Assembly: GCF_003932895.1 (NCBI RefSeq) | Contig: NZ_RQYW01000010.1 | Span: 1-64,000 of the forward strand | Reading direction: 5' to 3' | DNA from: Leptotrichia sp. OH3620_COT-345 | GTDB taxonomy: Bacteria; Fusobacteriota; Fusobacteriia; Fusobacteriales; Leptotrichiaceae | Length of the DNA stretch: 64,000 nt | Notes under the pieces: generated by a model | Seen by the model: the letters and a program-made list of their open reading frames with translations, nothing else | Databases searched by the model: none | What the model was told of the DNA's origin: nothing | Part shown: in pieces, positions 21,916-38,012 of the stretch | Numbering within the stretch: the stretch's first letter is position 1 | Layout: each line of letters starts with the position of its first letter | Position numbers and translations under genes: made by a program

Positions 21916-22359
21916 ATGATAAAATTATTTGTATATGGCTCTTTAAGAAAAGGCTGCTTTAATCATTCTTATATTAAAGAAAAAGCTGAATTTAAAAGAA
22001 TATTTTATGTAAAAGGAACACTCTTTACAATTAAAAACAAGAAATATCCTGCTCTTATTTTAAATAATTGTAAAAAAAACTCTTCTGATATATTTACAGT
22101 AGGAGAATTATATGAATTTTGTGAAAATGCGGATAATCCTGAAAAAATTTTTGAAAATATGGATAAAATGGAGGAATATTATGGCGAAAACAATATAAAT
22201 AATGAGTATAACCGCCTTTGCCTTGACATATATGACAGTAATTATAAAAAAGCAGACAGTGCCTACGTATATGTTTATAATCTTGAAAATCCTTTATTGA
22301 AAGACAGCCTGGAAAATAAAATTGAAAATAATGATTATCTTAATGTATATAAAAAATAA
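21916..22359 (+). CDS. Gamma-glutamylcyclotransferase-like (AIG2/GGCT) protein
   Basis: 147 aa. KLFVYGSLRKGCFNH at residues 3-17 is the YGSL substrate loop of the BtrG/AIG2 fold, and VGELYEF (about 58-64) with the following NMDKMEEYYG carries the expected catalytic Glu region. Members release 5-oxoproline from gamma-glutamyl amines. Position right after pcp supports a common 5-oxoproline theme. Its AAGGTGA RBS is 10 nt from the ATG. Substrate not known. Confidence 0.75.
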   Translation: MIKLFVYGSLRKGCFNHSYIKEKAEFKRIFYVKGTLFTIKNKKYPALILNNCKKNSSDIFTVGELYEFCENADNPEKIFENMDKMEEYYGENNINNEYNRLCLDIYDSNYKKADSAYVYVYNLENPLLKDSLENKIENNDYLNVYKK

Positions 22360-22371
22360 GGAGAAAATAGA

Positions 22372-22932
22372 GTGACTGAAAAGGAAAAAATGATAAGTGG
22401 AAAACTGTACAAAAGTTTTGGAGAAGAGCTGGCAAAAGAACGACTGCATGCTAAAGAACTCTGTTTTGACTTTAATAATATAAGACCGTCAAATACTGAG
22501 GAAAAAAACCGGATAATAAAAAATCTGTTCGGAAAAATAGGAAAAAATTTCTGGATAGAAGCTTCTTTCATATGTGATTACGGCTATAATATAAAAGCAG
22601 GGGATAATCTTTATATAAATTACAACTGTGTAATTCTTGACTGTGCACAAGTTACTTTGGGAAATAATGTAATGATTGCACCTAATGTGGGAATATACAC
22701 AGCAGGACATCCTCTTGATTCAAAAACAAGACATGAAGATTTACTCGAATTTGCTTATCCCGTTACTATTGGAAATAACGTCTGGATAGGAGCAAATGTT
22801 ATTATTCTGCCGGGAGTTTCCATTGGAGATAATTCAGTTATCGGAGCCGGGAGTGTAGTTACCAAAAATATTCCTGAAAATGTAATTGCTGTAGGAAATC
22901 CATGTAAAGTCATAAGAAAAATAAAATCCTAA
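22372..22932 (+). CDS. Sugar O-acetyltransferase (maltose/galactoside type)
   Basis: 186 aa left-handed beta-helix acyltransferase. N-terminal mac domain (SGKLYKSFGEEL, residues 9-20), DNLYINYNCVILD, PNVGIYTAGHPLD with the catalytic His, and hexapeptide repeats IGNNVWIGANVIILPGVSIG. Acetyl-CoA donates to the C6 hydroxyl of glucosides or galactosides. The GTG at 22372 is chosen because AAGGAG lies 8 nt upstream. It may be cotranscribed with the preceding gene. Confidence 0.9.
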   Translation: MTEKEKMISGKLYKSFGEELAKERLHAKELCFDFNNIRPSNTEEKNRIIKNLFGKIGKNFWIEASFICDYGYNIKAGDNLYINYNCVILDCAQVTLGNNVMIAPNVGIYTAGHPLDSKTRHEDLLEFAYPVTIGNNVWIGANVIILPGVSIGDNSVIGAGSVVTKNIPENVIAVGNPCKVIRKIKS

Positions 22933-23002
22933 TCTATTAAAAAAATTTCTTATACTTTTACATAATACTTTCTACTTTCATGTTACAATATTTTATTGTT
23001 TT

Positions 23003-23180
23003 AAAATTCCCGACATTCAAAATTTTTTCAAAAAAATATGATATTATGTTGATTAGGAAAACTACTGTCCGGGCATTGCAAGTTTACTGTTTTCAAAATA
23101 TGATGAGTATTTTTGAGGTCTTAAAAATTTTGTAGTCGGTAGTGGAAGTATAAGAACGGAGATGAGTCCTCATGAAATAA
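23003..23180 (+). repeat. Dispersed intergenic element, copy 2
   Basis: Blocks in order: CCCGACATTCAAAATTTT, ATATGATATTATG, CTGTCCGGGCATTGCAAG, TTTACTGTTTTC, GAGTATTTTTGAGG, TTTTGTAGTCGGTAGTGG, GTATAAGAACGGAGATG, and the end ATGAGTCCTCATG. It follows the acetyltransferase gene in the same orientation and ends just before the Zur-type promoter. Confidence 0.8.
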
Positions 23181-23216
23181 TTTTTGAATAATTTTATAAA
23201 AAAATTTAATATCTAT

Positions 23217-23271
23217 TTGACAAATCCAACCGATTGTTATATAATCAAAAATATTTTGCAAATCATTTGCA
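23217..23271 (+). promoter_or_regulatory. Promoter with Fur/Zur-type 7-1-7 operator
   Basis: TTGACA (23217-23222), 17 bp, TATAAT (23240-23245). The palindrome TGCAAAT-C-ATTTGCA (23257-23271) covers the likely start point and has the 7-1-7 layout of Fur, Zur and PerR boxes. The downstream genes encode a Fur-family regulator and a zinc ABC transporter, so zinc-dependent autorepression is inferred. Confidence 0.8.
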
Positions 23272-23321
23272 TTTTTATAGTTTTAATTATTCTAAAAATT
23301 TTGTCTTTTTAAAGAGGTAAT

Positions 23322-23681
23322 ATGATGAAATTAACTAAAAAACGTCAAGAAATCCTTGATATTATAAAATCGTCAGAAACTCCCATAAATGTAAAATTTT
23401 TAAAGTCAAAAGTAACTTTTGATCTTTCTACAATATATCGCTCTCTTGATTTTCTGGAAAAAAATAAATTTGTTTTTTCTTTTGATTTGGAAAATGAAAG
23501 ATATTATTTTAAAGAGGAAAATGCAAACTTTTTTGTATGTAATTCGTGTAAGCATATTGAAAATATAACTGAATTTTCAAATTCGGAAACAGAAAATGAA
23601 AAAGACATATTGAAAAAGAAAGGGTTTTCTCCTCTTTCCCATTTGTCTATTTTCAAAGGAAAATGTAATGACTGTAATTAA
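23322..23681 (+). CDS. Fur-family regulator, probably zinc-responsive (Zur)
   Basis: 119 aa, shorter than the usual 135-150. N-terminal winged helix with FDLSTIYRSLDFLEKN (about 37-52), the Fur recognition helix. Two CxxC pairs (CNSCKH at about 84-89 and CNDC at the C-terminus) form the structural zinc site. The His-rich stretch that normally precedes the first CxxC is ENANFF here, so a sensory ligand set seems reduced. ATG at 23322 or 23325. It heads the znuACB operon under a Zur-type box. Confidence 0.85.
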   Translation: MMKLTKKRQEILDIIKSSETPINVKFLKSKVTFDLSTIYRSLDFLEKNKFVFSFDLENERYYFKEENANFFVCNSCKHIENITEFSNSETENEKDILKKKGFSPLSHLSIFKGKCNDCN

Positions 23682-23745
23682 ATGGAGCTGTTATATTTCC
23701 AATATTCATTAAAAAAATTTAAAATTATATAACGGGAGGAAACAA

Positions 23746-24708
23746 ATGAAAAAAATTTTAACATTAATTTTAGTAGGAATTTTTATTTTTTCGTGTGGAA
23801 AAAAGGAAAGCTCGGGAAAAAAAGAAGACACTATAAAAACTGAAACTACTATAAAAAAAGAAAAAATAGCGGCAAGTATACCTCCGCTTAAATGGATTGT
23901 TCAGAAAATTGCGGGAAATGATTTTGAAGTTATTTCCATTGTTCAACCGAATATGAATCACGAACTTTTTGACCCCAAACCTGATGATTTGAAAGTTCTT
24001 GAAGATTCAAAAATATTCTTCACTTACAATATGTTGGCTTTTGAGGAAACAGTTGGAAAAAGTCTGAATAATCCCGATAAAGTTACTAATGTTCTTAACG
24101 GAGTAGATACTGCATTATTTTTAAAAGGACATCATCACGATGATGACGACCATGACCATGATCATAAAAATGAAAAACATGGACATAAAGATGAAAAAAA
24201 TAAAAAAGATGACCACAACCACGATGAAGATTCTCTTGATCCTCATGTATGGTTTTCACTGGAAATGATGCCCCAAGTTGCTAAAAATATAAAAGATAAA
24301 TTAACGGAAATATATCCTGATAAAAAAGATGTTTTTGAAAAAAATTTCAATGATTTTTCTGTTGAATTGAATAAGTTTAAAGATGAGATTTCAAAAAAGA
24401 TGGCTTCAAAAACTAAAAAATCATTTATGATTTACCATCCTGCACTTGACTATTTCCTGAAAAACTATGATATTGAAGAAATTGAAATTGAAAGTGAAGG
24501 AAAGGAACCTTCTGCACAGCAGATTAAAGAAATTATAAATGAAGCTAAGGAACACGGTGTAACTACCATCTTGGTTCAACCTCAGTTTCCTAAACAGAGT
24601 GCGGAAGCTATATCCAAAGAAATTCCTGGTTCAAAAGTAATGGAATTCAATGTGGATTTGGAAAATGTATTTGAAAATCTTAACCGTTTTGTTGATTATC
24701 TTGACTAA
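23746..24708 (+). CDS. znuA: Zinc ABC transporter substrate-binding lipoprotein ZnuA
   Basis: 320 aa. Lipobox IFSC with Cys17 as lipidation site. Cluster A-I binding protein: PPLKWIVQKIAG, MNHELFDPKPDD with a metal-ligand His, SLDPHVWFS with a second His and MIYHPALDYF with a third. Residues ~125-160 form a His/Asp-rich loop (HHHDDDDHDHDH), characteristic of zinc rather than manganese binders. GGGAGGA precedes the ATG. It works with the ATPase and permease that follow. Confidence 0.93.
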   Translation: MKKILTLILVGIFIFSCGKKESSGKKEDTIKTETTIKKEKIAASIPPLKWIVQKIAGNDFEVISIVQPNMNHELFDPKPDDLKVLEDSKIFFTYNMLAFEETVGKSLNNPDKVTNVLNGVDTALFLKGHHHDDDDHDHDHKNEKHGHKDEKNKKDDHNHDEDSLDPHVWFSLEMMPQVAKNIKDKLTEIYPDKKDVFEKNFNDFSVELNKFKDEISKKMASKTKKSFMIYHPALDYFLKNYDIEEIEIESEGKEPSAQQIKEIINEAKEHGVTTILVQPQFPKQSAEAISKEIPGSKVMEFNVDLENVFENLNRFVDYLD

Positions 24709-24734
24709 TTAAGCATATTAAAGAAAGGATCAGT

Positions 24735-25430
24735 ATGAAAAGTTCCGAAAAAAAGCTAATCAGTGTAAGAAATTTAAGTTTTAAATATCATAATGATCTT
24801 ATTCTGAATGACATAAATTTTGATATATTTAAAGGACAAAATGTAGCAATATTAGGAAGAAATGGCGGAGGAAAATCTACTTTAGTAAAAGTTATCTTGA
24901 ATTTTCTTAAAAAGAAAACAGGAAAAATCAAGTTTTTTATCGATAAAAGTAGAATCGGCTATCTTCCTCAAATTAGAGAATTTGATGTGACATTTCCAAT
25001 TAATATTTTTGATTTGGTTATATCGGGGCTTACAAATAGAAAAAATCTTTTCAGACCCTTTAATAAAGAAGAAAAAGAAAAAACGGAAAAACTTCTGAAA
25101 GAATTTGGAATTTTTCATCTGAAACATAAATTAATAAGTGAAGTTTCAGGAGGTCAGCTTCAAAGAGCTCTTATTGCAAGGGCTCTTGTCTCATCTCCTG
25201 AAATCATATTTTTAGACGAGCCTGAATCTTTCCTTGATAAAGAATTTGAATTTAGGTTATTTGAAAAAATAAAACAGCTTTCAGATTCCACACTTGTCAT
25301 AATTTCTCATGAACTGGAAAAAATATATAACTATGTGGATTCTATATTTATTGTGGAAGAAAATATAAAAATATATAAAGATAAAACCGATTATTATAAA
25401 AGTGAAAATACAAACTTACATAAACATTGA
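24735..25430 (+). CDS. znuC: Zinc ABC transporter ATP-binding protein ZnuC
   Basis: 231 aa ABC ATPase. Walker A GRNGGGKST (about 39-47), ABC signature EVSGGQLQRALIARAL (about 136-151), Walker B EIIFLDEPES and switch His in LVIISHE. It powers zinc import at the inner membrane. The start has AAAGGA 8 nt upstream; 26 nt separate it from znuA and 41 nt from znuB. Confidence 0.93.
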   Translation: MKSSEKKLISVRNLSFKYHNDLILNDINFDIFKGQNVAILGRNGGGKSTLVKVILNFLKKKTGKIKFFIDKSRIGYLPQIREFDVTFPINIFDLVISGLTNRKNLFRPFNKEEKEKTEKLLKEFGIFHLKHKLISEVSGGQLQRALIARALVSSPEIIFLDEPESFLDKEFEFRLFEKIKQLSDSTLVIISHELEKIYNYVDSIFIVEENIKIYKDKTDYYKSENTNLHKH

Positions 25431-25471
25431 TTTTTATATAAAATTATATATTAATTAAAGATTGGGGAAAA

Positions 25472-26308
25472 ATGAACTTCATAGATTTTTTTGAATACTC
25501 TTTTATGAGAAATGCTCTCATTGTAGGATTTCTTTCAAGTGTATGTTGCGGAATAATAGGAACATATATTGTAAATAAAAAAATGGTTTTTATTTCTTCA
25601 AGTATAAGCCATGCTTCATATGGAGGAATAGGGATAGGAATTTTCCTTATTCATTTTTTTAAACTTCCTGTAAAAGATCCGTTAATTTTTGGATTATTTT
25701 TTTCTATATTGTCGGGGATACTTATACTTCTTTTAAAGGATTTTTTCAATGTAAACAGTGATTTAGGAATAGGAATGGTAATGTCACTGGGAATGGCGGT
25801 AGGAATTATATTTTCCTTTATTACTCCCGGTTATCAGGCAGATATGTCTACCTATTTATTCGGAAATATACTGCTTTCAAACAATACAAATATAATTTCT
25901 CTTTTAATACTGGACATTATTACAGTAATATTTTTTATTGTGTACTATAAAGGAATTGTATATACTAGTTTTGACGAGAAACTATATGGAATATACGGAG
26001 TACCTGTTTCTTTCATAAATTATTTTATGATTACTCTTATATCTTCAGCAATAATAATAAATATAAAGACAATAGGAATTATTCTTATTATTTCCATATT
26101 GACGATTCCCCAAGCCGCTGCATCCATTGTAGCAAAAAAATATTCAGTTATTATATTACTGTCAGTACTTTTTTCCTTTTTAGGAATTCTTTCGGGATTA
26201 TATTTTTCATATGTGCTTAATATTCCGTCAGGTCCTTCCATAATAGTATCATTAATTATTTTGATTGTCATAATAAAATTTTTTTCTTTTTTTCGAAAAA
26301 ATGATTGA
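25472..26308 (+). CDS. znuB: Zinc ABC transporter permease ZnuB
   Basis: 278 aa with about eight membrane helices. FMRNALIVGFLSSVCCGIIG and SSSISHASYGGIGIG near the N-terminus are typical of the ABC-3 permease family, as is IKTIGIILIISILTIPQAAA. It is the membrane channel for ZnuA-delivered zinc. Its last codons overlap the -35 box of the dps promoter. Confidence 0.92.
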   Translation: MNFIDFFEYSFMRNALIVGFLSSVCCGIIGTYIVNKKMVFISSSISHASYGGIGIGIFLIHFFKLPVKDPLIFGLFFSILSGILILLLKDFFNVNSDLGIGMVMSLGMAVGIIFSFITPGYQADMSTYLFGNILLSNNTNIISLLILDIITVIFFIVYYKGIVYTSFDEKLYGIYGVPVSFINYFMITLISSAIIINIKTIGIILIISILTIPQAAASIVAKKYSVIILLSVLFSFLGILSGLYFSYVLNIPSGPSIIVSLIILIVIIKFFSFFRKND

Positions 26309-26358
26309 CAATTTTTTTAATATTTTATATAATTAATTTGTAATGATTATAATTATAA
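26305..26358 (+). promoter_or_regulatory. Promoter of dps with AT-rich palindrome
   Basis: TTGACA (26305-26310), 17 bp, TATAAT (26328-26333). The palindrome TTATAATTATAA at 26347-26358 lies just after the likely start point and resembles a PerR/Fur half-site pair, though its AT-rich nature makes chance possible. Confidence 0.6.
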
Positions 26359-26387
26359 AATAATTTTAAAATAAGGAGAGGATAACA

Positions 26388-26825
26388 ATGAGTAAAACTG
26401 TAGAAAAATTAAATCTATACTTAGTAAATTTAAATGTACTTTATAGAAAAGTACAGAATTATCACTGGAATGTCATAGGTAAAGGATTCTTCACTATACA
26501 TGCAAAATTGGAAGATTTCTATGACGGAATCAGCGAGCAGATAGATGAAGTAGCTGAAAGAATACTTTCTGTGGGAGGAAGACCATACGGTACTTTAAAA
26601 GATTATTTAGAACTTACTACTCTTAAAGAAGCTGAAAATAAAGAAATTTCAGTTGAAAATGTTGTTAATTCAGTAAAATCGGATTTTGAAGCTATGCTTA
26701 ACCTTTTAAAAGAAACTAAAGAAGTTGCTGATAGTGAAAATGATTATGGAACTTCAGCAATGCTTGATGAATATATTTCAGAATATGAAAAAAATCTATG
26801 GATGTTAAATGCTTACTTAAAATAA
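26388..26825 (+). CDS. dps: Dps-family ferritin-like DNA/iron protein
   Basis: 145 aa four-helix protein. NYHWNVIGKGFFTIHAKLED (residues 24-43) carries His26 and His38, and GISEQIDEVAERI (47-59) carries the acidic ligands of the inter-subunit ferroxidase centre. Dps dodecamers oxidise and store iron with peroxide. AAGGAGAGGA is the RBS. Its own promoter and terminator make it a single-gene unit next to the zinc operon. Confidence 0.93.
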   Translation: MSKTVEKLNLYLVNLNVLYRKVQNYHWNVIGKGFFTIHAKLEDFYDGISEQIDEVAERILSVGGRPYGTLKDYLELTTLKEAENKEISVENVVNSVKSDFEAMLNLLKETKEVADSENDYGTSAMLDEYISEYEKNLWMLNAYLK

Positions 26826-26854
26826 TAGTTTTTCAATTTTTTACCTGACCTAAC

Positions 26855-26892
26855 AAAAAAACTATTCTTAAAATTTTAAGAATAGTTTTTTT
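26855..26892 (+). terminator. Strong terminator after dps
   Basis: Perfect 19-base inverted repeat centred at 26873/26874 with half AAAAAAACTATTCTTAAAA, ending in seven T residues. It lies 30 nt after the dps stop and could work in both directions. Confidence 0.88.
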
Positions 26893-26990
26893 ATTTCTCT
26901 AAATGTTCATTTTCATATTTTTTTGTTGAAATGATTTAAATGTCGCAATTTTATTTTTAATTTAACGGCCTTATACTTTATTTATTTTAA

Positions 26991-27165
26991 ACTTCCCGAC
27001 ATTCAAAATTTTTCCGAAAAAATATAATATTATACCGGTGAAAAAACAATTATCTGAGGACAATAAATTTTCTATTTTTCAAGTATAATAAATAATTTTG
27101 AGGATTAAAAAATTTTGCTGTTGGTAGTGAATGTGTGAAGTCAGTAATGAATTCTCATGAAGAAA
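26991..27165 (+). repeat. Dispersed intergenic element, copy 3
   Basis: Starts ACTTCCCGACATTCAAAATT, continues TATAATATTATAC, TTATCTGAGGACAATAAATT, AATAATTTTGAGGATTAAAA, TTTTGCTGTTGGTAGTGAA and ends in ATGAATTCTCATG. It follows dps and its terminator and ends at the fni stop codon. More diverged than copies 2 and 4. Confidence 0.75.
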
Positions 27166-27169
27166 AATC

Positions 27170-28204
27170 TTATAATTTCCTCTGTTCTGTAAACTCTTTT
27201 GTTTTTCCATATAATATATATTTTACATTTTTCAAATCACTTATATTTTTAGAGTTTAATGCACACATTATAATCTTACATTCATGTTTCCAACTATCTA
27301 AAGTTTTAATGACTTCTTCAATGGAATTTTCTTCAATAAGTTTCAGTATTGCCTTTGAAATTCCGACTCCTTTAGCTCCCAATACTAATGATTTTATTAT
27401 ATCCAACGGATTTCTGATACCTCCGCTTGCTATTATTTCTACTTTATCCATGTATTCTTTTACACTTAAAAGTGAAACAACTGTCGTTTGTCCCCAGTCA
27501 TCTAAATAAGAAAATTTGTTATTCCTCCTTGCATTTTCAATATAGGCAAAGCTTGTTCCGCCTCTTCCGCTTATATCAAAAGTTTTTATCCCCAGTTCTA
27601 TTCCTTTCCTTACAGTTTCCTTACTCATTCCAAATCCCACTTCTTTAAGAATAAGAGGAATTTTTATATTTTCTGTAAATCCTTTTATATTTTCCTGCCA
27701 TTTGCTGAAATTTCTGCTTCCTTCAGCCATTATAAGCTCCTGCATAAAGTTTACATGTATTTGAAGAAATAATGGGTTCAAATCTTCTATTGCTTTAATT
27801 CCGTCTTTATAATCTTTATCCGCTCCGATATTTGTTCCTAAAAGTAAATCTTTATTTTCTTCCCTCACTATCCTGAAAGAATTATCATCAGGATTTTTTA
27901 GTGCTGCACTGTAAGAGCCCGTTATAAAAAGTAATCCGCACTCTTGTGCAACTTTTGCTAATTTTCTGTTTATTTCTTTTCCTCTTTGACTTCCCCCTGT
28001 CATGGCATTTATAAAAAAAGGGCATTCAAATTTATGTCCCGCAAAACATACGGAAGTGTCGATATCTTCCATATTATATTCAGGTATTGAATGATGTATC
28101 AGTTCTATATCGTCAAAGCTGTTATATGCACTCTCATATTTTAAGGCATGATTTATATGATCATCTTTTCTGTTCATTTTTCCATATATGTCATTATCAG
28201 GCAT
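27170..28204 (-). CDS. fni: Isopentenyl-diphosphate delta-isomerase, type 2
   Basis: 344 aa FMN-dependent enzyme that interconverts IPP and DMAPP. Family marks: NRKDDHINHAL (residues 11-21), FECPFFINAMTGGS, LLLGTNIGADKD, ISGRGGTSFAYIE and the FMN phosphate site ASGGIRNPLDIIKSLVLGAK. Last gene of the mevalonate run, 13 nt after phosphomevalonate kinase. Cytoplasmic. Confidence 0.95.
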   Translation of the reverse strand: MPDNDIYGKMNRKDDHINHALKYESAYNSFDDIELIHHSIPEYNMEDIDTSVCFAGHKFECPFFINAMTGGSQRGKEINRKLAKVAQECGLLFITGSYSAALKNPDDNSFRIVREENKDLLLGTNIGADKDYKDGIKAIEDLNPLFLQIHVNFMQELIMAEGSRNFSKWQENIKGFTENIKIPLILKEVGFGMSKETVRKGIELGIKTFDISGRGGTSFAYIENARRNNKFSYLDDWGQTTVVSLLSVKEYMDKVEIIASGGIRNPLDIIKSLVLGAKGVGISKAILKLIEENSIEEVIKTLDSWKHECKIIMCALNSKNISDLKNVKYILYGKTKEFTEQRKL

Positions 28205-28217
28205 ATTTCCTCCTATT

Positions 28218-29240
28218 TTACAGTTCTGATGAATAAAGTAAATCTATATTTTCCTTTTTCCATCTTTCAATCAAAATTTCCGTATCATTTTTATTAAAGG
28301 ATACAGCTATCCCGCAGTCTCCTCCCCCGGCTCCACTGCTTTTTGAAAATATATCAAGACCGTCAGAAGCTTTTACAAGTTTTTCAAGTTCATTGCTATA
28401 TATCGACTTATCCAAATTTTTCAGTAACTTTCCCCCTTTATCTAAAGCGTTCCCAATCATTTTACAATTTCCTGTTTTTATTCCTTTTACAAGCTCACGT
28501 ACATTTCTATCGGAATTTTCCAGAAATTTTTCATTAATAGATTTTTTCACATGATTTATCATATCTTTAGAAATTGAAGGCTTTTTTGTCCAACCTACTA
28601 AAAATTCATATTTCTCCTTACATTTTAATTTTTCAATACTATATCCCCAATCCATATCCATTATTTTTCCAAGGGATTTTTTCTCTATTTCCGTACTTAC
28701 TTTTCCTCTGTCAAACGAAGTATAGACAATGAGACTTTCGTAAGTTATACATGCCAAATCTCCCATTGAACCATTATCCCCTCTTTTTAAAAGTATATAA
28801 GAAGATAATTTAAAAACTTCCTCTTTTGAAATTTTCAATTTATATAATTTTATCATTGCCTTTATTACTAATATTACCACACTTCCACTTGATCCTATAC
28901 CGTATTTTTTGCCGTTATTTTCCATTTTCCCCATTATATTCAACTCAAAGGGGAAAGTTTTTATTGCTTTTATGTAAAGGTATTCATTTACAATATTTAC
29001 AGTTTCCTGTATAAGGGAGTAATCTTCATTTTTTTCTAAAGACACTGAATAACCGTACATATCAGAATATATCTTATAATTATTTGAAAATTTTATTTTT
29101 GCTTCCATGTAAATATTTACATTTTTTACAACTGCACTATGACCTGAAATTAATACTGCATATTCTCCTGCTATGTAAAGTTTTCCACAAGTTTTTACTT
29201 TGACTAATTTTCCATTATCTTCCCTATTCCCTATCGTCAT
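28218..29240 (-). CDS. Phosphomevalonate kinase
   Basis: 340 aa GHMP kinase. LYIAGEYAVLISGHSAVV (substrate strand), the ATP loop YGIGSSGSVVILV and the third motif SKSSGAGGGDCGIAV are visible. Position between diphosphomevalonate decarboxylase and IPP isomerase identifies the substrate as mevalonate 5-phosphate. It overlaps the preceding gene by 17 nt, indicating translational coupling. Confidence 0.92.
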   Translation of the reverse strand: MTIGNREDNGKLVKVKTCGKLYIAGEYAVLISGHSAVVKNVNIYMEAKIKFSNNYKIYSDMYGYSVSLEKNEDYSLIQETVNIVNEYLYIKAIKTFPFELNIMGKMENNGKKYGIGSSGSVVILVIKAMIKLYKLKISKEEVFKLSSYILLKRGDNGSMGDLACITYESLIVYTSFDRGKVSTEIEKKSLGKIMDMDWGYSIEKLKCKEKYEFLVGWTKKPSISKDMINHVKKSINEKFLENSDRNVRELVKGIKTGNCKMIGNALDKGGKLLKNLDKSIYSNELEKLVKASDGLDIFSKSSGAGGGDCGIAVSFNKNDTEILIERWKKENIDLLYSSEL

Positions 29241-30183
29241 CAGAAATCACCTTCGTTTTTGATGCTATTATATTATATTTCTTTTTCAATATATTTTTCA
29301 GTTTTTCAAAACTTTCTTCAAGACACAGAACTTTCACATTAGGTCCTGCATCCATTGTAAAATAGCATTTTTCTCCTTTTTCCCTCAGCTCTCTGACATA
29401 ATCCATTGCTTCCCTGCTTTTATCTGTCAGATACGAAAAAGGAGGAGTTGTATATAATGTTGTTTCATGCATTGCCAAAGCATTTTTTTCAGTCAGCTCT
29501 CCTACTTTTTTAAAATCATTTTCAGTTAACGCTTTTTTCATATCTTCATAATCTTTTTCAGAATCTTTTACCCATTTTTCAAATACTGTGGAAGTTTCAC
29601 TACAAAGTTTCATCCCTTCCCTACTTGATATTATTTTCTTTTCTTCATTCAGTACAAGCATAATCATTGCGAGCTTTAAATCTGTTTTTATTTCATATAT
29701 TTCTCCTGTATCTTTATCCCATGCACCTATAGGACCGAAAAAACTCCTTGCAGAAGAACCTGATCCGAATTTTGAAATTCCTGCCATTTCATTTCTTGAA
29801 AGATTTTTGTCAAACAGCTTATTACATGCTTTTATTACCGCCGAAAGCCCACTTGAGCTTGAAGACAATCCTGCTGCTGTCGGCATGCTGTTTTCAGTTT
29901 TTATTAATACTCTCCGATTTTTATCTTCTCTGAACATATTTATTATGTTACTTATTTTTTCAGTCTGCTTTTCATCCTGAAGCTCTCCATTCAGATAAAA
30001 TAAATCCTTGTCAATGAATTTATCTCCATTATTATCAATGAAACTTATTTCCGTATCGGTATACATATTTTCCAATGTAAGAGATATGCTGCTTGTAGCA
30101 GGTATCATATTTTTTTCATTTTTTTTCCCCCAATATTTTATAATTGCTATATTGGCATAGGATCTTACAGTTTTTCTGTCCAT
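29224..30183 (-). CDS. mvaD: Diphosphomevalonate decarboxylase
   Basis: 319 aa. Starts with RSYANIAIIKYWGKKNEK, the family signature, followed by PATSSISLTL, the ATP loop PTAAGLSSSSSGLSAV, and YFTMDAGPNVKVLC with the catalytic Asp. It makes IPP from mevalonate 5-diphosphate. It overlaps the mevalonate kinase stop by 19 nt. Confidence 0.95.
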   Translation of the reverse strand: MDRKTVRSYANIAIIKYWGKKNEKNMIPATSSISLTLENMYTDTEISFIDNNGDKFIDKDLFYLNGELQDEKQTEKISNIINMFREDKNRRVLIKTENSMPTAAGLSSSSSGLSAVIKACNKLFDKNLSRNEMAGISKFGSGSSARSFFGPIGAWDKDTGEIYEIKTDLKLAMIMLVLNEEKKIISSREGMKLCSETSTVFEKWVKDSEKDYEDMKKALTENDFKKVGELTEKNALAMHETTLYTTPPFSYLTDKSREAMDYVRELREKGEKCYFTMDAGPNVKVLCLEESFEKLKNILKKKYNIIASKTKVISDDDRE

Positions 30184-31073
30184 ATATTTACTGCTCCTTT
30201 TTCTTTTAAAGCCTGTTTTATTATATCTGCCTTCTTTTCATCATCAGTCAGAGCTATGATACAGCCTCCCTGCCCTCCACCTGATATTTTTGCTCCCAAT
30301 GCTCCCGCTTTCATCGCCTCATCTATGAGTAAATCTGTCTTCATTGTACTTAAACCAAGTTTTGAAAGCTCTTTATTTGCTTTAAGCATATTTCTTCCTA
30401 TATTGATTAAATCTTTTTCTTCTATATATTTTTCTGTTTCTTCTGTAAGTTTTCCAAGTTCTGAAAGCATAGGCTCCGCTTTTTCTCCCATTTCTCTTAT
30501 CATAGTTACAGTTTCTCTGGTTTTCCCCTGAATTCCTGAATCCGCTATTATAAGATATGCTCCCAAATTCAAATTAATATTGAAAAATCCCGCTTGTCTG
30601 ATAAATTTTACAGCTTTATCACTTAGACATGTTTTTGCGTCAAGACCGCTCGGAGTAGTGTGAGCCACAATTTCAGCTTTATTTACAAGTTCTTCAAGAA
30701 TATTTTTTTCGGGCTTTTTTCCGAAGTAGTTAAATACGGCTTTGATTCCTGCTATACTTACAGCTGCTGAAGAACCCATGCCTCTTTTTTCAGGAATTTC
30801 AGATTCTACTTCATATTTTATTTTTTCATTCTCTTTTCCCAGATATTTTAATGCTTCATAAACAGCTGTTGACAAAGTATCTTCAGGATTATATGAAAAC
30901 AGTCTATCTGAAAGTGTTACTTTACACTTTACAGTTACGTTTTTTAAAGGAATGGCAATGGCAGGATAGCCATAAACTACTGAATGTTCTCCTATCAGTA
31001 TTATTTTTGAATGTGCTTTCCCGACACCTATTTTTTCAGCAATATTCTCATTTTTTCCTATGCCGATTAACAT
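30165..31073 (-). CDS. mvk: Mevalonate kinase
   Basis: 302 aa GHMP kinase. ILIGEHSVVYGYPAIAIPL (about 25-43), ATP loop KRGMGSSAAVSIAGIKA, TTPSGLDAKTC and the C-terminal AKISGGGQGGCIIAL. It phosphorylates mevalonate. AGGAGG precedes the ATG, and only 1 nt separates the start from the stop of the TctA-like permease gene upstream, so the two are coupled. Confidence 0.94.
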   Translation of the reverse strand: MLIGIGKNENIAEKIGVGKAHSKIILIGEHSVVYGYPAIAIPLKNVTVKCKVTLSDRLFSYNPEDTLSTAVYEALKYLGKENEKIKYEVESEIPEKRGMGSSAAVSIAGIKAVFNYFGKKPEKNILEELVNKAEIVAHTTPSGLDAKTCLSDKAVKFIRQAGFFNINLNLGAYLIIADSGIQGKTRETVTMIREMGEKAEPMLSELGKLTEETEKYIEEKDLINIGRNMLKANKELSKLGLSTMKTDLLIDEAMKAGALGAKISGGGQGGCIIALTDDEKKADIIKQALKEKGAVNIWTEKL

Positions 31074-31074
31074 A

Positions 31075-32403
31075 CTAAATTCCTCCTATTATCTGTACAA
31101 TGAATGAAGAAGCATACAACGTCATAAACTGAACTCCGTAATTTACTCCAAGTTTATTCATAAATCCGCTGTAAAGACCTATTAAAAATACCCCAAATAT
31201 ATTTATAATACCTGCTTCCATATAGGAAAGCAACAATATAAAAGAAACAAATACTGCAAGTACGGCTTCATGAGGTATTCTTGTCATAACGAAATAAGTT
31301 ATTTTAAAAGCATATCTTGTAATAAGAAAATAGCTCAATCCTGCCGCTATCAACGCAGAAATTAATACAGTAATTATAAAAGTTTCTTTTGGAAGTAAAT
31401 TATGAATATTATTTCCTATTTTAAACCTATCTCCCGCTTCAAACAATGCAGCTCCCGGACCTATAGCTGCAGGAGATAAAGGTATCCCCAATCCGAAAAG
31501 AGATATTATTATTCCTGATAAATAAGTAGCCTGAGCTATTGCACCCATTCCTACAAGCTTTTCAGTGTGGGAGATTGTTTCATCTTTTCCTTTCCCTATA
31601 AGTTCTTTGGATAAAATAAGCAATCCTACAGGACTTAATACAAAAAGAAAATTTACAATTACTGAAGATAAAACGGAAATCTTCATTTCTTCCTTGGTTA
31701 ATTTCACCTTTTTACTGTCTTCAGATTCAGGAAGAATAACATTATCATATTCCTTTACTTCCATTTCTTTTAAAGATTCTTTATTTAAAAGCGAAATCAT
31801 GGATACAAACAAAGGTCCTATTGTTATTCCGATAAAAAAAGATGTCGTAATATTTTTTGTTGGAGGAACTACTTCAATAGCATAATAAAGATGTCTTAAC
31901 GCCATTACGAGAATAGCTCCCGGAATAATGGAAATAAGACATAATGCCTTATTTTTACTTATAAGTGATAAAAATACCGCTCCTGCCACAAAAAAATATT
32001 TTGAATATGCTTTTATAGATTCTCCAAAAGGAACTAATGCATTCGCCAGAAGAAGTGATATTATTATTGAAATAAATGTCGCTATTACCGCAGATAGTGC
32101 CATTTTTTTTATTACCGTGGCACTTAATCCTTTTTTCTTGAGTATAAATCCACTTTCTATCATAGGTGTAGACATTACACCCCCAGGTAGTCCTACCAAA
32201 ATTGCAGGCATAAGATTTATAAGATTTAGCGTGATTATTGCTGAAATAAAGAAACTCAATATTATCACTTCAGATGCCCCTGCCAATACAAGCATAAGTG
32301 TTATAGGAAGTAGGACACTTGTTTCATCAGTTCCCGGAACGAAACCGATTACAGTATATATAAACACTGCTGCCAATGCAGCTATGACTATTTCAAATAT
32401 CAT
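31075..32403 (-). CDS. TctA-like permease (tripartite tricarboxylate transporter family)
   Basis: 442 aa, about 11 membrane segments. GFVPGTDETSVLLPITL (about 21-37) and AILVGLPGGVMSTPMIESGF (about 66-85) correspond to the two conserved glycine/proline motifs of TctA. Typical TctA has about 500 aa. The periplasmic binding protein TctC is not nearby, only a small membrane protein. Coupling to mevalonate kinase raises the possibility that it carries mevalonate or a related acid (inference). Confidence 0.75.
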   Translation of the reverse strand: MIFEIVIAALAAVFIYTVIGFVPGTDETSVLLPITLMLVLAGASEVIILSFFISAIITLNLINLMPAILVGLPGGVMSTPMIESGFILKKKGLSATVIKKMALSAVIATFISIIISLLLANALVPFGESIKAYSKYFFVAGAVFLSLISKNKALCLISIIPGAILVMALRHLYYAIEVVPPTKNITTSFFIGITIGPLFVSMISLLNKESLKEMEVKEYDNVILPESEDSKKVKLTKEEMKISVLSSVIVNFLFVLSPVGLLILSKELIGKGKDETISHTEKLVGMGAIAQATYLSGIIISLFGLGIPLSPAAIGPGAALFEAGDRFKIGNNIHNLLPKETFIITVLISALIAAGLSYFLITRYAFKITYFVMTRIPHEAVLAVFVSFILLLSYMEAGIINIFGVFLIGLYSGFMNKLGVNYGVQFMTLYASSFIVQIIGGI

Positions 32404-32644
32404 TTATGCCCTCCGTTTTTAATTTTCTTTTTGGTCTGAATAAAAGGCTTGTTATTATAAATCCCGCTGTTGTTCCTGCCAGTCCGAATAAAAGCTGTAT
32501 AGCTTTCGGATCTACATTTATCTGAATACCGAAAGAAAGGAAATATCCTGCAAATGTAGTTATAGCTACAATAATTATAGATATTACCAGTTCACTTATT
32601 GAAACTATATCTCCCCATATTTTTATAAGTCTCTCATTTTTCAT
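32393..32644 (-). CDS. Small membrane protein, possible TctB-like partner
   Basis: 83 aa with two hydrophobic segments (about 18-37 and 47-67) and a basic C-terminus FRPKRKLK. It overlaps the TctA-like gene by 11 nt, so the products probably interact, in the way the small TctB subunit serves TctA. No clear motif; TctB normally has four segments, so this may be a distinct family. Confidence 0.6.
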   Translation of the reverse strand: MKNERLIKIWGDIVSISELVISIIIVAITTFAGYFLSFGIQINVDPKAIQLLFGLAGTTAGFIITSLLFRPKRKLKTEGINDI

Positions 32645-32721
32645 ATTTTATCTCCTTAAATTAAAAACTTCTCCTTCTATACTTCATCTTTATATGTGCA
32701 GGTTTTTATTGATTTCCGTTT

Positions 32722-33954
32722 TTATTTTATTTTTATAATTTTCTTTTTTCCTGCTCTTATTACCATCCCTTTTTCAGGAGTAATAGACACTTTTACATCT
32801 TTCACCGCTTCATCGTTCACCTTAAAACCACCTTGTTCTATGAGTCTTCTCGCTTCACTTGTTGAAGATAGAAGACCTGTTTTTTTCACTAATAAATCTA
32901 TTATTCCTATTTCTTCATAAGGAAGTTCTATTTCAGGTAAATCTACATCGAGGTTCTTCCTGCTGAATACATTTTCAAACCATTCCCTCGCTTTTTTAGC
33001 TTCCTCTTCGTTATGGTATATTTTTACAACTTCTTCTCCTAATCTTTTTTTAACTTCCATAGGATGAAGAGACCCTTTTTCGATATCCTCTTTCATCTTT
33101 TTTATTATTTCCTGAGGAATTTCGGTAATTACTTCATAATATCTGTACATTAATTCATCAGATACCGACATTATTTTTCCAAACATATCATTTGGACTGT
33201 CTTTAACTCCAATATAATTATTTAGAGATTTACTCATTTTTTCAACTCCGTCAAGTCCTTCAAGAATAGGCATTATCATACACACTTGCTGTTCCTGACC
33301 GAAATTTTTCTGTAAATCTCTTCCCCTTAGTAAATTAAATTTCTGCTCTGTAGCTCCAAGCTCGACATCCGCTTTAAGTTCCACAGAATCATAGCCCTGA
33401 AGTATTGGATACATAAATTCTATAAGTGATACCGGCTTATTTTCTGAAAGTCTTTTTGAAAAATCTTCCCTTGAAATCATCTGAGATACTGTAAACTGTG
33501 AAAGTAACTTTAAAACATCTTCTAGCGTAAGTTTTTCAAGCCAATCGGCATTGTACACTACTTTTATTTTATCCAGGTCAAGTATTAATGACACTTGTTC
33601 CAGATATGTTTTTATATTTTCATTCACCTGTTCGGCAGTGAGCATTTTTCTTGTTTCGGATTTTCCCGTAGGATCTCCTATTCTTCCTGTAAATGTTCCG
33701 ATGAGAAATAAAACCTGATGTCCCAAGTCCTGAAACTGCTTCAACTTTCTCAAAGGTACTGCATGGCCTAAATGCAAATCCGTTCCCGATGGATCTATTC
33801 CCAGTTTTATTCTTAAAGGAGTATTTGTAGAAATCGACTTTTCAAGCTTTTTTTTAAGCTCATGTTCGTTTATTATTTCTTCACAGCCTCTTTTTAATAT
33901 ATCAAACTGTCTTTCAACTTCTTTTTTTATTTCTTCTTCATTATTAATACTCAT
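32722..33954 (-). CDS. tyrS: Tyrosyl-tRNA synthetase
   Basis: 410 aa class I synthetase. HLGHAVPLRKLKQF near residue 60 is the HIGH motif, KMSKSLNN near 235 is KMSKS, and the last ~65 residues form an S4 RNA-binding domain (TSEARRLIEQGGFKVN). The sequence resembles the Thermus/TyrZ subtype. GGAGG precedes the ATG. No T-box leader fits in the 70 nt before it. It lies within a lipid/isoprenoid gene run, apparently by operon fusion. Confidence 0.96.
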   Translation of the reverse strand: MSINNEEEIKKEVERQFDILKRGCEEIINEHELKKKLEKSISTNTPLRIKLGIDPSGTDLHLGHAVPLRKLKQFQDLGHQVLFLIGTFTGRIGDPTGKSETRKMLTAEQVNENIKTYLEQVSLILDLDKIKVVYNADWLEKLTLEDVLKLLSQFTVSQMISREDFSKRLSENKPVSLIEFMYPILQGYDSVELKADVELGATEQKFNLLRGRDLQKNFGQEQQVCMIMPILEGLDGVEKMSKSLNNYIGVKDSPNDMFGKIMSVSDELMYRYYEVITEIPQEIIKKMKEDIEKGSLHPMEVKKRLGEEVVKIYHNEEEAKKAREWFENVFSRKNLDVDLPEIELPYEEIGIIDLLVKKTGLLSSTSEARRLIEQGGFKVNDEAVKDVKVSITPEKGMVIRAGKKKIIKIK

Positions 33955-34024
33955 TTTTTCCTCCTACTTTTATCTTGCGATATTTTTCTTATTAAAATTT
34001 AATTTTTATATAATTATATATTTT

Positions 34025-34951
34025 TTACATAGGCACTACATACTTCATAAATACATAAACTATAGGCAATACAAATAATGCACTGTCAAATCTGTCAAGA
34101 AATCCTCCATGTCCTAATAACAGACTTCCTGAATCTTTTATTTCAAGTTCTCTTTTTATTTTTGATTCCACGAGGTCCCCCAACTCTGCAAATACACCTA
34201 TAGCAAGGGCAAGAAGAAAAGCTTTCCAACCTGATATTGCAATATAATCATAACTTAAACTGCAAGTTTTTGAAATCATTGAAATACTGCAAAGAATTTT
34301 TGCTATAAATAAATATATTTTATCAAAAAATGAAATCACAATAAACACTCCCAAAATCCCTGCAATTGCTCCTTCAATAGATTTATTCGGACTTATTTTC
34401 GGAGCAAGTCTCTGTTTAAATATTTTTCTTCCTATTAAAATCCCTACAAGATATGCAGAAATATCACATGCCCAAATTAATATAAATGTCATTGCAACTA
34501 TTACATTTCCATTAGGAAACTCATATTTTATAAGTAATATATATGAAAAAAAGTAAGCAATATATATTATTCCGAATAATGTATACGATATTTCCGCCAT
34601 TGCACCTTTAATCTTAACTTTCAAAATTTGTCTGAAAGCTATAAGCATTAATGCAAAAACTATATATCCTCCCATATCAAAATTTATTTGCTCCAAAAAC
34701 CTCATTTTAAAAAATGAAAATATATTTTTTGAATTTTCCTGAAAATATATTGCCAGAGGAAGAAATAACCCCAATCCCATTCCTATTCTACTTGCAACTT
34801 CAAATCCCTTATCTTTCAACATTTTATAAAATTCCTGAAGGGAAACACCTATTATTACCATAGTGAATATTAAGAACATAATATCACCTTTCAAAAAAAT
34901 CCAAAGAAGAAATGGTACAAATAATATAATTACAAATATTCTACTTAGCAT
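34025..34951 (-). CDS. cdsA: Phosphatidate cytidylyltransferase
   Basis: 308 aa with about eight membrane segments. The family signature is near the C-terminus: GDLVESKIKRELEIKDSG followed by LLLGHGGFLDRFDSALF; KISPNKSIEGAIAG precedes it. It makes CDP-diacylglycerol for phospholipid synthesis. Overlaps the uppS stop by 11 nt, an order common in bacteria. Confidence 0.95.
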   Translation of the reverse strand: MLSRIFVIILFVPFLLWIFLKGDIMFLIFTMVIIGVSLQEFYKMLKDKGFEVASRIGMGLGLFLPLAIYFQENSKNIFSFFKMRFLEQINFDMGGYIVFALMLIAFRQILKVKIKGAMAEISYTLFGIIYIAYFFSYILLIKYEFPNGNVIVAMTFILIWACDISAYLVGILIGRKIFKQRLAPKISPNKSIEGAIAGILGVFIVISFFDKIYLFIAKILCSISMISKTCSLSYDYIAISGWKAFLLALAIGVFAELGDLVESKIKRELEIKDSGSLLLGHGGFLDRFDSALFVLPIVYVFMKYVVPM

Positions 34952-35636
34952 TCAAACCTCCATACCTCCTGTCTCTCCTACTAAAAGACATAATAGCCTT
35001 ATCGTATTCTTCAGGTGTAAAATCAGGCCAGTAAACATCAGTTACATAAAATTCCGAATATGCAATTTCCCAAAGAAGAAAATTACTTATTCTGAATTCA
35101 CCACTTGTCCTTATTATAAGTTCGGGATCCGGAATATCAGGTCTATACAAATATTCTCTGAACTCAGTTTCAGTTATATTTTTTTTACCTGTTTCCAGTA
35201 TTTTATTTACAGCATCTGTTATTTCTTTTCTTCCTCCATAGTTGAATGCTATGTTGAAAACCATATTTTCACAGTTTTCCAAATATTTCTGAGTTTCTTT
35301 TATTTTTTTTATTAATTTTTCAGAAATATTTTCTTCAGATCCTGTTATAAGAAGCTTTATCCCCTGTTTTTTCAAATTTTTCTTTTTACCGTCAAGATAT
35401 TTCGAGAACAGTTCCATCAGACCGTTTATTTCTTTTTCGGGTCTTTTCCAGTTTTCAGTGGAAAAAGCATATACAGTCAGGTATTTAATTCCTATTTTCA
35501 TTGAGTGCTCTATTATTTTTTCCAGATTAGCAGCCCCTTGTCTATGCCCTTCAAGTCTTATTTTCCCCTTTTCTTTTGCCCATCTTCCGTTACCGTCCAT
35601 TATTATCGCCACATGTTTCGGTATTGTCAATTCCAT
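34941..35636 (-). CDS. uppS: Isoprenyl (undecaprenyl) diphosphate synthase
   Basis: 231 aa cis-prenyltransferase. HVAIIMDGNGRWAKEKGK (7-24) holds the catalytic Asp, GHRQGA binds diphosphate, and DPELIIRTSGEFRISNFLLW near the C-terminus is the second signature. It extends farnesyl diphosphate with IPP to the wall-lipid carrier. IPP comes from the mevalonate genes farther down the same strand. Confidence 0.96.
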   Translation of the reverse strand: MELTIPKHVAIIMDGNGRWAKEKGKIRLEGHRQGAANLEKIIEHSMKIGIKYLTVYAFSTENWKRPEKEINGLMELFSKYLDGKKKNLKKQGIKLLITGSEENISEKLIKKIKETQKYLENCENMVFNIAFNYGGRKEITDAVNKILETGKKNITETEFREYLYRPDIPDPELIIRTSGEFRISNFLLWEIAYSEFYVTDVYWPDFTPEEYDKAIMSFSRRDRRYGGLNAK

Positions 35637-35726
35637 ATATATCCTTTCAAAAGAACTGTTTTTTTATAAATTACTTATATTTTACCATATTTTTCAAAAA
35701 TTTTAAAAATCTTTTTTAAATTAAAT

Positions 35727-35754
35727 TTGATGTTTTGAATTTATATGATATAAT
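35727..35754 (+). promoter_or_regulatory. Promoter of the nadR-like gene
   Basis: TTGATG (35727-35732), 16 bp, TGA-TATAAT with an extended -10 (35746-35754), 41 nt before the start codon. Confidence 0.65.
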
Positions 35755-35795
35755 TAATTCAAATAGCTAATTTTATTGTGGGAGAATGAATATAA

Positions 35796-36884
35796 ATGAA
35801 AATAGGGATTGTAGTAGGAAAATTTCTACCCCTTCATATAGGGCATGTGAATTTAATTCAAAGAGCAAGCGGTTTAGTTGATAAAGTTTATGTCGTAGTT
35901 TCCTTTTCTGATACAGGAGATACGGAAATGGTTTCAAATTCACGTTTTATAAAAGAAATTACACCAAAAGACAGACTCAGGTTTGTAAAACAGACTTTTA
36001 AAAATCAGAAAAATGTTTCGTCCTTTTTATTTGATGAAAGCGGTTGCCCTCCATTCCCTGAAGGATGGGAAAAATGGTCGGAAATCCTGAAAAAAGAAAT
36101 AGAAGAAAGGGAACCCGGTCTAAGCTGGGAAAATGACGTTTTATTTATAAGTAATAGAAAAGACGATGAAAAATATAATTTAAAATTCTTTAATGCAAAA
36201 ACCAAATCTATTGACCCTGAATATTCGGAATACCCTGTAAATTCGTGGGAAATTAGGGAAAATCCAAGTAAATACTGGGAATTTCTTCCCCGTGAAGTAA
36301 GAGAACATCTAATTCCGATTATTACAATCTGTGGAGGAGAAAGCAGTGGAAAAAGCGTAATGATAGATAAACTCGCAAATGTTTTTAATACTTCTTCAGC
36401 TTGGGAATACGGGCGTGAATATGTTTATGAAAAACTAGGAGGCGATGAAGATGCTCTCCAGTATTCAGATTATGAAAAAATTGTATTCGGTCATCAGTCA
36501 AATGTCCTGTATGCAGCAAGAAATGCCAATAAATTTGCCTTAATAGATACAGATTACATAACTACATTAGCGTTCTGCCTAACTTATGAAAAGAAAGACA
36601 ATCCTATTATAAGAGAATTTGTTCGTAATTATAAATTTGACTTGACGATACTTCTCGAAAATAATGTGAAATGGGTAAATGACGGTTTACGTTCCATTGG
36701 AGAAGACAGCAGGCGGAAAAAATTTCAGAATTTGCTGAAAGAATTATATAAAGAATATAATATTCCTTACATTACTGTAAAGTCGGACAATTACGAAAAA
36801 AGATATCTTGCCTGTCAGGAAATTATAAAAGCTTATCTGGATGGAAAGGATAATTTACAAGAAATTGCAGATTCATTCATATAG
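35796..36884 (+). CDS. nadR: NadR-like bifunctional NMN adenylyltransferase / ribosylnicotinamide kinase
   Basis: 362 aa. The N-terminal domain has GKFLPLHIGHVNLIQRA (8-24), the (H/T)xxH nucleotidyltransferase motif, and LFISNRKDDEKYN. The C-terminal kinase domain has the P-loop GGESSGKSVMIDKL (about 180-193) and LIDTDYITTLAF. The N-terminal helix-turn-helix of enterobacterial NadR is missing, so it is enzymatic only. It salvages nicotinamide riboside and NMN to NAD. Confidence 0.92.
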   Translation: MKIGIVVGKFLPLHIGHVNLIQRASGLVDKVYVVVSFSDTGDTEMVSNSRFIKEITPKDRLRFVKQTFKNQKNVSSFLFDESGCPPFPEGWEKWSEILKKEIEEREPGLSWENDVLFISNRKDDEKYNLKFFNAKTKSIDPEYSEYPVNSWEIRENPSKYWEFLPREVREHLIPIITICGGESSGKSVMIDKLANVFNTSSAWEYGREYVYEKLGGDEDALQYSDYEKIVFGHQSNVLYAARNANKFALIDTDYITTLAFCLTYEKKDNPIIREFVRNYKFDLTILLENNVKWVNDGLRSIGEDSRRKKFQNLLKELYKEYNIPYITVKSDNYEKRYLACQEIIKAYLDGKDNLQEIADSFI

Positions 36885-36894
36885 TAAAAATTAA

Positions 36895-36922
36895 GAGGGC
36901 TATTAATGCCCTCGCATTTTTT
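36895..36922 (+). terminator. Terminator after nadR
   Basis: GAGGGC (36895-36900), loop TATTAAT, GCCCTC (36908-36913), then GCATTTTTTCT. It separates the gene from the converging tetR remnant. Confidence 0.85.
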
Positions 36923-36968
36923 CTACATTTTTTGAAAAATATTTTATAAACTTCATATTTTAACTAAT

Positions 36969-37560
36969 TCAATCTTTTTTACTTTTAAAACCTTCTAATA
37001 AACAAACTATAGAATTATGTATTTCTTTTTTATCAATTTCTTCTTTTTGAGAAAAATACAATGTTAATTCATTTAATGCTCCTGATATCATACGACATAT
37101 TACAGAAATTTCCAAATCAACTAATTTTTTTTGATTTTGCAAAACTGTAAAATGTTCCTCCAAATGTGAAACTGAGTTTTCATTATCAATTTTTCTCCAT
37201 TTATCCCATCCGATAATATTTGGTGCATCTATTAACAATATTCTTTTATTTTTTTCTAAAATTGCTGCATCTATAAAACCTGTACAATCTCCTATTAATT
37301 GTCCCCAAACATCACTAAAATTAAGGACTTTTTTCCACATTTTCAGCAACTTCCTGTTGAACCTTTTTTAAAACTGATAAAAAAAGCGTTTTTTTATTTT
37401 TAAAATGATGATATAATGCTCCTCTTGTCATTTGGACTTCTTCTGCAATTGCCTCTAAAGAAGTTTTTGAGTATCCATTTTGTGTAAAGTGTCTACGTGA
37501 TATAGCAATTAATTTTTCTATTGTTTCCATCGAAGCTAATTCTTTTTTATTTTTTTTCAT
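36969..37560 (-). pseudogene. TetR-family regulator split by a frameshift
   Basis: The first part (37560 down to about 37321) encodes a full TetR helix-turn-helix: TSLEAIAEEVQMTRGALYHH. It runs to VAENVEK and stops at a TAA four codons later. The ligand-binding domain continues in another frame from about 37335 (VLNFSDVWGQLIGDC) to 36969. Removing one A from the six-A run at about 37330-37335 restores a single ~195-aa protein. It could be a true mutation, a phase-variable tract or a base error. Its likely operator at 38013-38039 is intact. Confidence 0.82.
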
Positions 37561-37561
37561 T

Positions 37562-37969: not shown

Positions 37970-38012
37970 CTAAATCACTCTTATATAAATATAATTTTAT
38001 TATATTTATATT

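Follow-up and report, generated by a model that had tools for sequence, protein, structure and literature searches.

The 64,000 nucleotides (nt) of contig NZ_RQYW01000010.1 of Leptotrichia sp. OH3620_COT-345 that are analysed here, referred to below as the window, carry a TctA-family permease predicted to import mevalonate. The permease (442 amino acids, 31075..32403) belongs to a cluster that lies throughout on the minus strand, in which the gene for an 83-amino-acid membrane protein (32393..32644) is followed by the permease and then by mvaK1 (mevalonate kinase, 30165..31073), mvaD (diphosphomevalonate decarboxylase, 29224..30183), mvaK2 (phosphomevalonate kinase, 28218..29240), and idi2 (type 2 isopentenyl-diphosphate (IPP) isomerase, 27170..28204). 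Successive genes overlap or are separated by at most 13 nt. An earlier note on this DNA had pointed to the tight packing around the permease, and the coordinates bear it out: the permease ends at 31075 and mvaK1 starts at 31073, leaving 1 nt between stop and start, and the small-protein gene (32644–32393) overlaps the permease gene (32403–31075) by 11 nt. The lower mevalonate pathway is represented by mvaK1 (TIGR00549, 235 bits, cut-off 163), mvaK2 (TIGR01220, 204 bits, cut-off 166), and mvaD (TIGR01240, 398 bits, cut-off 171), all above their curated NCBIfam cut-offs, as is idi2 (TIGR02151, 379 bits, cut-off 281). No TctC-type binding protein is seen by eye among the open reading frames of 22000–38000, as the same note had remarked, the rest of the genome not having been searched for TctC. 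It was also right that 3-hydroxy-3-methylglutaryl-CoA (HMG-CoA) synthase and reductase lie outside the cluster; both, however, are encoded elsewhere in the genome. The pair expected of mevalonate catabolism, HMG-CoA reductase with HMG-CoA lyase beside the permease, is not found in the window cluster.

Linkage of the permease to mevalonate genes, whose lack in related species the earlier note would have counted against import, recurs in distant relatives. Genome contigs were scanned by permease sequence only, with three permeases as queries, and the best 80 of 163 relatives were kept, including that of the sister species. Judged from flanking DNA, 62 of these 80 loci lie near mvaK1, mvaD, or mvaK2 and two lie near HMG-CoA reductase, leaving 16 with neither; for two of these 16 the contig stops less than 8 kb away (L149, with idi2 near, and L158). 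Gene order around the module varies, with 17 patterns as detected, some of which are due to contig ends or missed genes. In a genome of the same order in another family (G087), a permease 33% identical to that of the window is preceded by a related small protein and, before that, by HMG-CoA reductase. Several Bacillaceae, such as Oceanobacillus and Virgibacillus, carry the permease pair away from mevalonate genes (L115, L132, L139, L140, L148, L150, L155, L157), often with a metallo-beta-lactamase (MBL)-fold-like gene downstream by eye; HMG-CoA synthase and reductase are present in the seven of these eight genomes that were searched (all but L155).

Enzyme content of the linked genomes bears on the direction of transport. 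Of the 80 genomes, 50 were covered by profile searches for HMG-CoA synthase, HMG-CoA reductase, and DXR, with DXR alone standing for the methylerythritol phosphate (MEP) route: 39 from the group of 62 linked to lower-pathway genes, both of those linked to the reductase, and 9 of the 16 unlinked ones. A missing enzyme here means no profile match over cut-off, in genomes at scanned loci whose completeness is not given. Neither synthase nor reductase passes its cut-off in 31 of the 39 lower-pathway-linked genomes; in one of these, G105, the synthase profile scores 18.7 bits, below the cut-off. The other eight have both enzymes, and DXR goes unmatched in seven of them. Without its upper half, a lower pathway serves no evident purpose unless mevalonate arrives from outside. 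The 31 genomes comprise 25 RefSeq NZ_ records and six uncultured or metagenome assemblies, with Clostridium manihotivorum CT4 represented by a complete chromosome. DXR is present in 27 of them and has no match in Clostridium sp. Cult2 (G098), Clostridium ultunense (G099), a Tissierellia metagenome-assembled genome (G105), and Helcococcus sueciensis (G107), which are predicted from gene content to be mevalonate auxotrophs. Both reductase-linked genomes have DXR and no synthase match.

A second sample shows the same association; its 398 genomes were taken evenly from across the class to which G102 belongs. The permease occurs in 25 of these genomes as 26 copies, which form two score groups: ten genomes reach at least 640 bits and 15 lie at 304–459 bits, with one of the ten also holding a 428-bit copy. 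In the draw, 67 genomes have mvaD and 73 have HMG-CoA synthase over cut-off. Where mvaD is present, a permease of at least 640 bits occurs in six of seven genomes without a synthase match and in three of 60 that have such a match (Fisher p 6e-6, kinship ignored); without the centre genome, the former fraction becomes five of six (p 4e-5). By neighbourhood, the 26 copies, which include those at L087, L102, and L125, divide into seven near lower-pathway genes, 15 near HMG-CoA reductase, and four near neither, namely two of G413, one of G516, and a shortened copy in G268 with a lyase-like gene near. Neither synthase nor mvaD passes its cut-off in 14 of the 15 reductase-linked genomes (the exception is G525), and the reductase in those 14 therefore has no evident biosynthetic role.

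These reductase-linked copies point to a catabolic setting. An HMG-CoA-lyase-like gene lies near 11 of 18 HMG-CoA-reductase-linked permease copies overall and near 10 of 15 in the draw. Of three such genes tested, two, both from the draw, pass the NCBIfam lyase cut-off, and the third (L146) falls below it and passes the Pfam HMGL-like cut-off. By BLAST and annotation, reductase and lyase both sit beside the permease in L146, L171–L176, L178, L180–L182, and L185. The label "degradative" that NCBIfam gives to HMG-CoA reductases matching TIGR00532 has no diagnostic value: the window organism's own enzyme, which lies beside its synthase, passes it at 333 bits, and three tested reductases from permease loci pass it at 413–497 bits. 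The catabolic reading therefore rests on the nearby lyase-like gene and the missing HMG-CoA synthase match.

Similar arrangements are found on plasmids. Among 72,556 plasmid records, four permease relatives appear at E 1e-20, with 28–29% identity, and all four lie in the order HMG-CoA reductase, small protein, permease. HMG-CoA lyase directly follows the module on the Roseomonas gilardii plasmid pRo-1 and, in a Rhizobium etli plasmid, lies on the opposite strand at a distance of about 4 kb; two Burkholderia records show no lyase within 7 kb by BLAST. One of the latter comes from Burkholderia cenocepacia, a species in which an HMG-CoA reductase, possibly but not necessarily the plasmid-borne one, is termed oxidative in a title cited by PMC13064465. 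The mvaAB operon of Pseudomonas mevalonii, which we take to encode mevalonate catabolism through HMG-CoA reductase and HMG-CoA lyase, offers a comparison: relatives of the module lie between reductase and lyase in pRo-1 and in L171–L176, whereas the window module adjoins mevalonate kinase and the window organism's reductase lies elsewhere, beside HMG-CoA synthase.

Other HMG-CoA reductase loci were noticed along the way. In G041, a genome without a synthase match, the reductase is followed by a 429-amino-acid permease that looks GntP-like by eye (L002, 1462–4037) and that may be another kind of mevalonate carrier doing the same job. In G087 (L075, 10229–13309), Pfam identifies AtuA-family proteins (acyclic terpene utilisation) next to HMG-CoA reductase, and in G044 (L003, 42–2733) the reductase adjoins genes that are similar by eye, which suggests another mevalonate-breakdown cluster. 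In two members of the window's own family (G010 and G017; L004 and L005), whose genomes have no synthase match, the reductase has as its neighbour a gene that, by eye, resembles a UbiA-type prenyltransferase.

The permease itself is a clear family member. The Pfam TctA profile (PF01970) covers residues 7–421 of 442 (68.8 bits, cut-off 28.9, E 4.5e-19), and no other protein of the genome matches the family. Between the window and the second species of the genus, the permease is 95% identical, with a ratio of nonsynonymous to synonymous substitution rates (dN/dS) of 0.03; the ratio is 0.04 for tyrS, 0.12 for mvaD and mvaK1, and 0.24 for the small protein. A value of 0.03, next to 0.04 for tyrS, marks a real and strongly constrained gene. 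An AlphaFold2 model of the permease has a mean pLDDT of 85, and a Foldseek search with this model returns nothing from the PDB at E 0.001. VIA-align places the barley Yellow stripe 1 transporter at the top (Z 13.0), a kind of match that is weakly informative for helical membrane proteins, and its later rows hold NaCT, INDY, and carriers of the tripartite ATP-independent periplasmic (TRAP) class (Z 5.4–7.7) mixed among unrelated folds. Sequence profiles find no solved relative, only one chance row at E 0.41.

The small protein, picked out from the open reading frames, its hydropathy, and its BLAST homologues upstream of permeases, has two hydrophobic stretches, a WGDxV motif close to its N-terminus, and a PKR motif that follows the second of the stretches. 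The two stretches are present in the small-protein sequences examined for hydropathy, and eight columns are invariant among 25 sequences (D12, L19, L51, G54, G57, P71, K72, and R73 in window numbering). In 100 of 104 loci, BLAST finds a homologue of it immediately before the permease, which shows that the two travel together. A hydropathy script failed to pick the small protein in 11 of the 104 and took the wrong frame for L164 at least; nine of the 11 were placed by BLAST. The window protein matches no Pfam family at E 0.5, and its single NCBIfam match is far below cut-off (14 bits, cut-off 100). A Pfam scan of 25 small proteins that allowed matches up to E 1 gave weak matches to 21 families, TctB being absent from them, though a weak profile match can escape such a scan. 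The matches that did appear, most commonly Choline_transpo (8 of 25, best E 0.0013), are taken for chance matches to membrane helices. The small protein is predicted to act as a TctB-like subunit of the permease.

Compared with the tripartite tricarboxylate transporter TctABC, the window module is alike in a permease that fits the TctA profile nearly end to end and in a small membrane protein partner. It differs in having no TctC-type gene alongside by eye, in a small protein with two hydrophobic stretches, for 25 homologues of which the Pfam scan listed no TctB, and in a genomic context of mevalonate rather than citrate. The permease family is thus a known one, and what appears to be new is the predicted substrate, the small partner, and the absence of a TctC-type neighbour.

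Import is not evidently needed in the window's organism. The earlier note had looked to an absence of mvaS and mvaA as support for uptake, and this expectation fails: HMG-CoA reductase (L043, 5136–6440) and HMG-CoA synthase (L043, 6456–7631) are adjacent on contig C16 of the same genome, and both exceed their NCBIfam cut-offs. Three short motifs that we take to be expected in HMG-CoA synthase are all present in this enzyme. DXR has no match in the genome. Because synthase and reductase are present and DXR is not found, the organism appears from its gene content to make mevalonate itself and to use a complete mevalonate pathway as its isoprenoid route. A genome confined to mevalonate salvage would lack both enzymes; this one has them, which rules out obligate import and means that import is not essential here.

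The module is rare among close relatives. The permease occurs in two of three genomes of the genus and, at full or nearly full length, in three of 98 genomes of the phylum; a match in G014 (76 residues, E 3e-4) in the family and phylum searches was not counted as a permease. The second species of the genus, Leptotrichiaceae bacterium S30M_Sa_2 (G001), has the same order of small protein, permease, and mvaK1, the first two overlapping by 11 nt and the last two separated by 1 nt just as in the window, and mvaD and mvaK2 follow mvaK1. In the third genome (G002), tyrS is followed by mvaK1 about 100 nt on, without a permease. In the window, tyrS (32722..33954, minus strand, named by eye) marks the border of the insertion by comparison with this sister species. 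Upstream of tyrS on the same strand lie uppS and cdsA (34025–35636, names by eye), in an order kept in G001, which places isoprenoid supply close to one of its main uses.

Sequence comparisons separate the histories of permease and kinase. The window mvaK1 shares 68% identity with its G002 counterpart and at most 41% with full-length copies at scanned loci outside the genus; the window permease reaches 57% identity to copies at scanned loci outside the genus. In the permease tree, which leaves out L160 as a duplicate of L105, the window and its sister fall within a starred clade of 26 rows, the rest of which come from outside Fusobacteriota: Bacillota, Mycoplasmatota, or rows without a phylum label (Izimaplasma, C. 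ultunense). Lower-pathway genes are linked to 25 of the 26 rows, window and sister included, and genomic-context labels switch 11 times across the tree. Since the permease nests outside Fusobacteriota while mvaK1 resembles that of G002, the module was probably gained alone, by horizontal transfer, and inserted between tyrS and the resident mvaK1. Long branches meet where the window pair joins its clade, so the donor is unsure.

From the module, its linkages, and the enzyme matches and missing matches, all of them read from sequence, we infer the substrate, the direction of import, the coupling ion, and the subunit role of the small protein. Mevalonate is the metabolite common to mevalonate kinase and HMG-CoA reductase, the two kinds of neighbour, and is for that reason the predicted substrate; an inward direction is predicted because most of the linked genomes searched have no evident way to make mevalonate. 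An ion gradient is the usual driving force of secondary carriers. The 83-amino-acid protein and the permease would form a secondary transporter that moves mevalonate inward, driven by an ion gradient and without a TctC-type binding protein, and the neighbouring mevalonate kinase would phosphorylate the imported mevalonate for isoprenoid synthesis. In the window's organism uptake would supplement synthesis, given its own HMG-CoA synthase and reductase. The module may have come from a Bacillota-like source before being placed between tyrS and the native mvaK1. In some related systems it would feed a lower mevalonate pathway that has no upper half, as salvage or auxotrophy, and in others HMG-CoA reductase, in many cases with HMG-CoA lyase, so that mevalonate would serve as a carbon source. 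The earlier note's proposal of mevalonate uptake feeding directly into mevalonate kinase is thus strongly favoured by relatives in other phyla, through linkage and through the missing upper pathway (31 of 39 genomes), and is weakened by the mvaS and mvaA of the window's own genome. Taken together, it is highly probable that the two proteins are a horizontally gained, two-subunit mevalonate importer without a TctC-type partner.

Several observations weigh against this importer interpretation. The complete-looking pathway of the window's organism gives it no evident need of import, and a full-length permease is found in just two of 33 genomes of the family. Sixteen of the 80 scanned loci show neither mvaK or mvaD genes nor HMG-CoA reductase in their flanks, and in the nine genomes searched among them HMG-CoA synthase and reductase are both present and DXR goes unmatched. 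In the draw, three synthase-bearing mvaD genomes also carry the permease, and G374 has mvaD, no synthase match, and no permease match, with its reductase, mvaK1, mvaD, and mvaK2 in one cluster (L183). G413 is without a synthase, yet neither of its two permease copies lies near mevalonate genes, and G516, which has a synthase, holds an unlinked copy. The genomes of the draw are not independent, the Fisher test takes no account of kinship, and four drawn genomes (G102, G108, G122, and G531) are shared with the 80-locus set.

The same observations lend something to other explanations. If the permease exported surplus mevalonate as an overflow valve of the pathway, the apparent mevalonate synthesis of the window's organism and the synthase and reductase of the nine unlinked genomes would fit; however, 31 of 39 lower-pathway-linked genomes have no evident mevalonate to export, and 15 of the 26 copies in the draw sit with HMG-CoA reductase, 14 of these in genomes without a synthase match, which makes an exporter most improbable. 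Were the permease simply a carrier of citrate or tricarboxylates that happens to adjoin mevalonate genes, the Pfam family and the scarcity of full-length copies in the window's family would agree, but the linkage recurs across phyla and in different gene orders and the permease is associated with a missing HMG-CoA synthase among mvaD genomes, so that chance proximity is the least credible of these accounts. A related acid might be imported instead, for example 3-hydroxy-3-methylglutarate or mevalonate phosphate, the substrate being read from context only. Pathway knowledge speaks against both candidates, as mevalonate phosphate would have no use at HMG-CoA-reductase loci and hydroxymethylglutarate none for mvaK1 without the upper pathway, whereas mevalonate is shared by kinase and reductase; we regard a related acid as very unlikely.

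Work on a TRAP binding protein for mevalonate is said to exist; our literature search turned up no such paper. Among lactobacilli, the hiochi bacteria have a known requirement for mevalonate. That search, with subscription papers largely outside its scope, found no gene for a natural bacterial mevalonate importer, and none is named in the available parts of PMC9363119, PMC5040788, and PMC13064465. Mevalonate importers have been made by mutation of monocarboxylate carriers, MCT1 F360C and yeast JEN1t Y180C/G (available text of PMC12405511, which also describes an assay in yeast devoid of both HMG-CoA reductases); the module resembles these in its predicted mevalonate import and differs in that its permease is of the TctA family and occurs naturally in bacteria. 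The diversity of bacterial isoprenoids is the subject of a 2026 review that covers incomplete pathways, and the word "uptake" is absent from its main text (PMC13001223, as available). In a 2026 Borrelia preprint, IPP, unlike mevalonate, fully rescued depletion of HMG-CoA reductase, and a difference in uptake is raised (PMC13370337, as available).

With somewhat less assurance than for the window's module, we consider it likely that a natural bacterial importer family, consisting of a TctA-type permease and a WGD/PKR small protein without a TctC-type binding protein, underlies widespread mevalonate salvage, in which many Bacillota would keep the lower pathway only, some as obligate auxotrophs, and other bacteria would feed catabolism. 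If so, a gene would be assigned to a transport step for which the literature search found no natural bacterial gene, and lower mevalonate pathways without an upper half would be accounted for. The family would also offer a ready-made importer for isoprenoid engineering. It would further predict bacteria that live on the mevalonate of others, some of them without an evident isoprenoid route of their own, and where mevalonate is present such species could bypass a block in mevalonate synthesis or in the MEP route.

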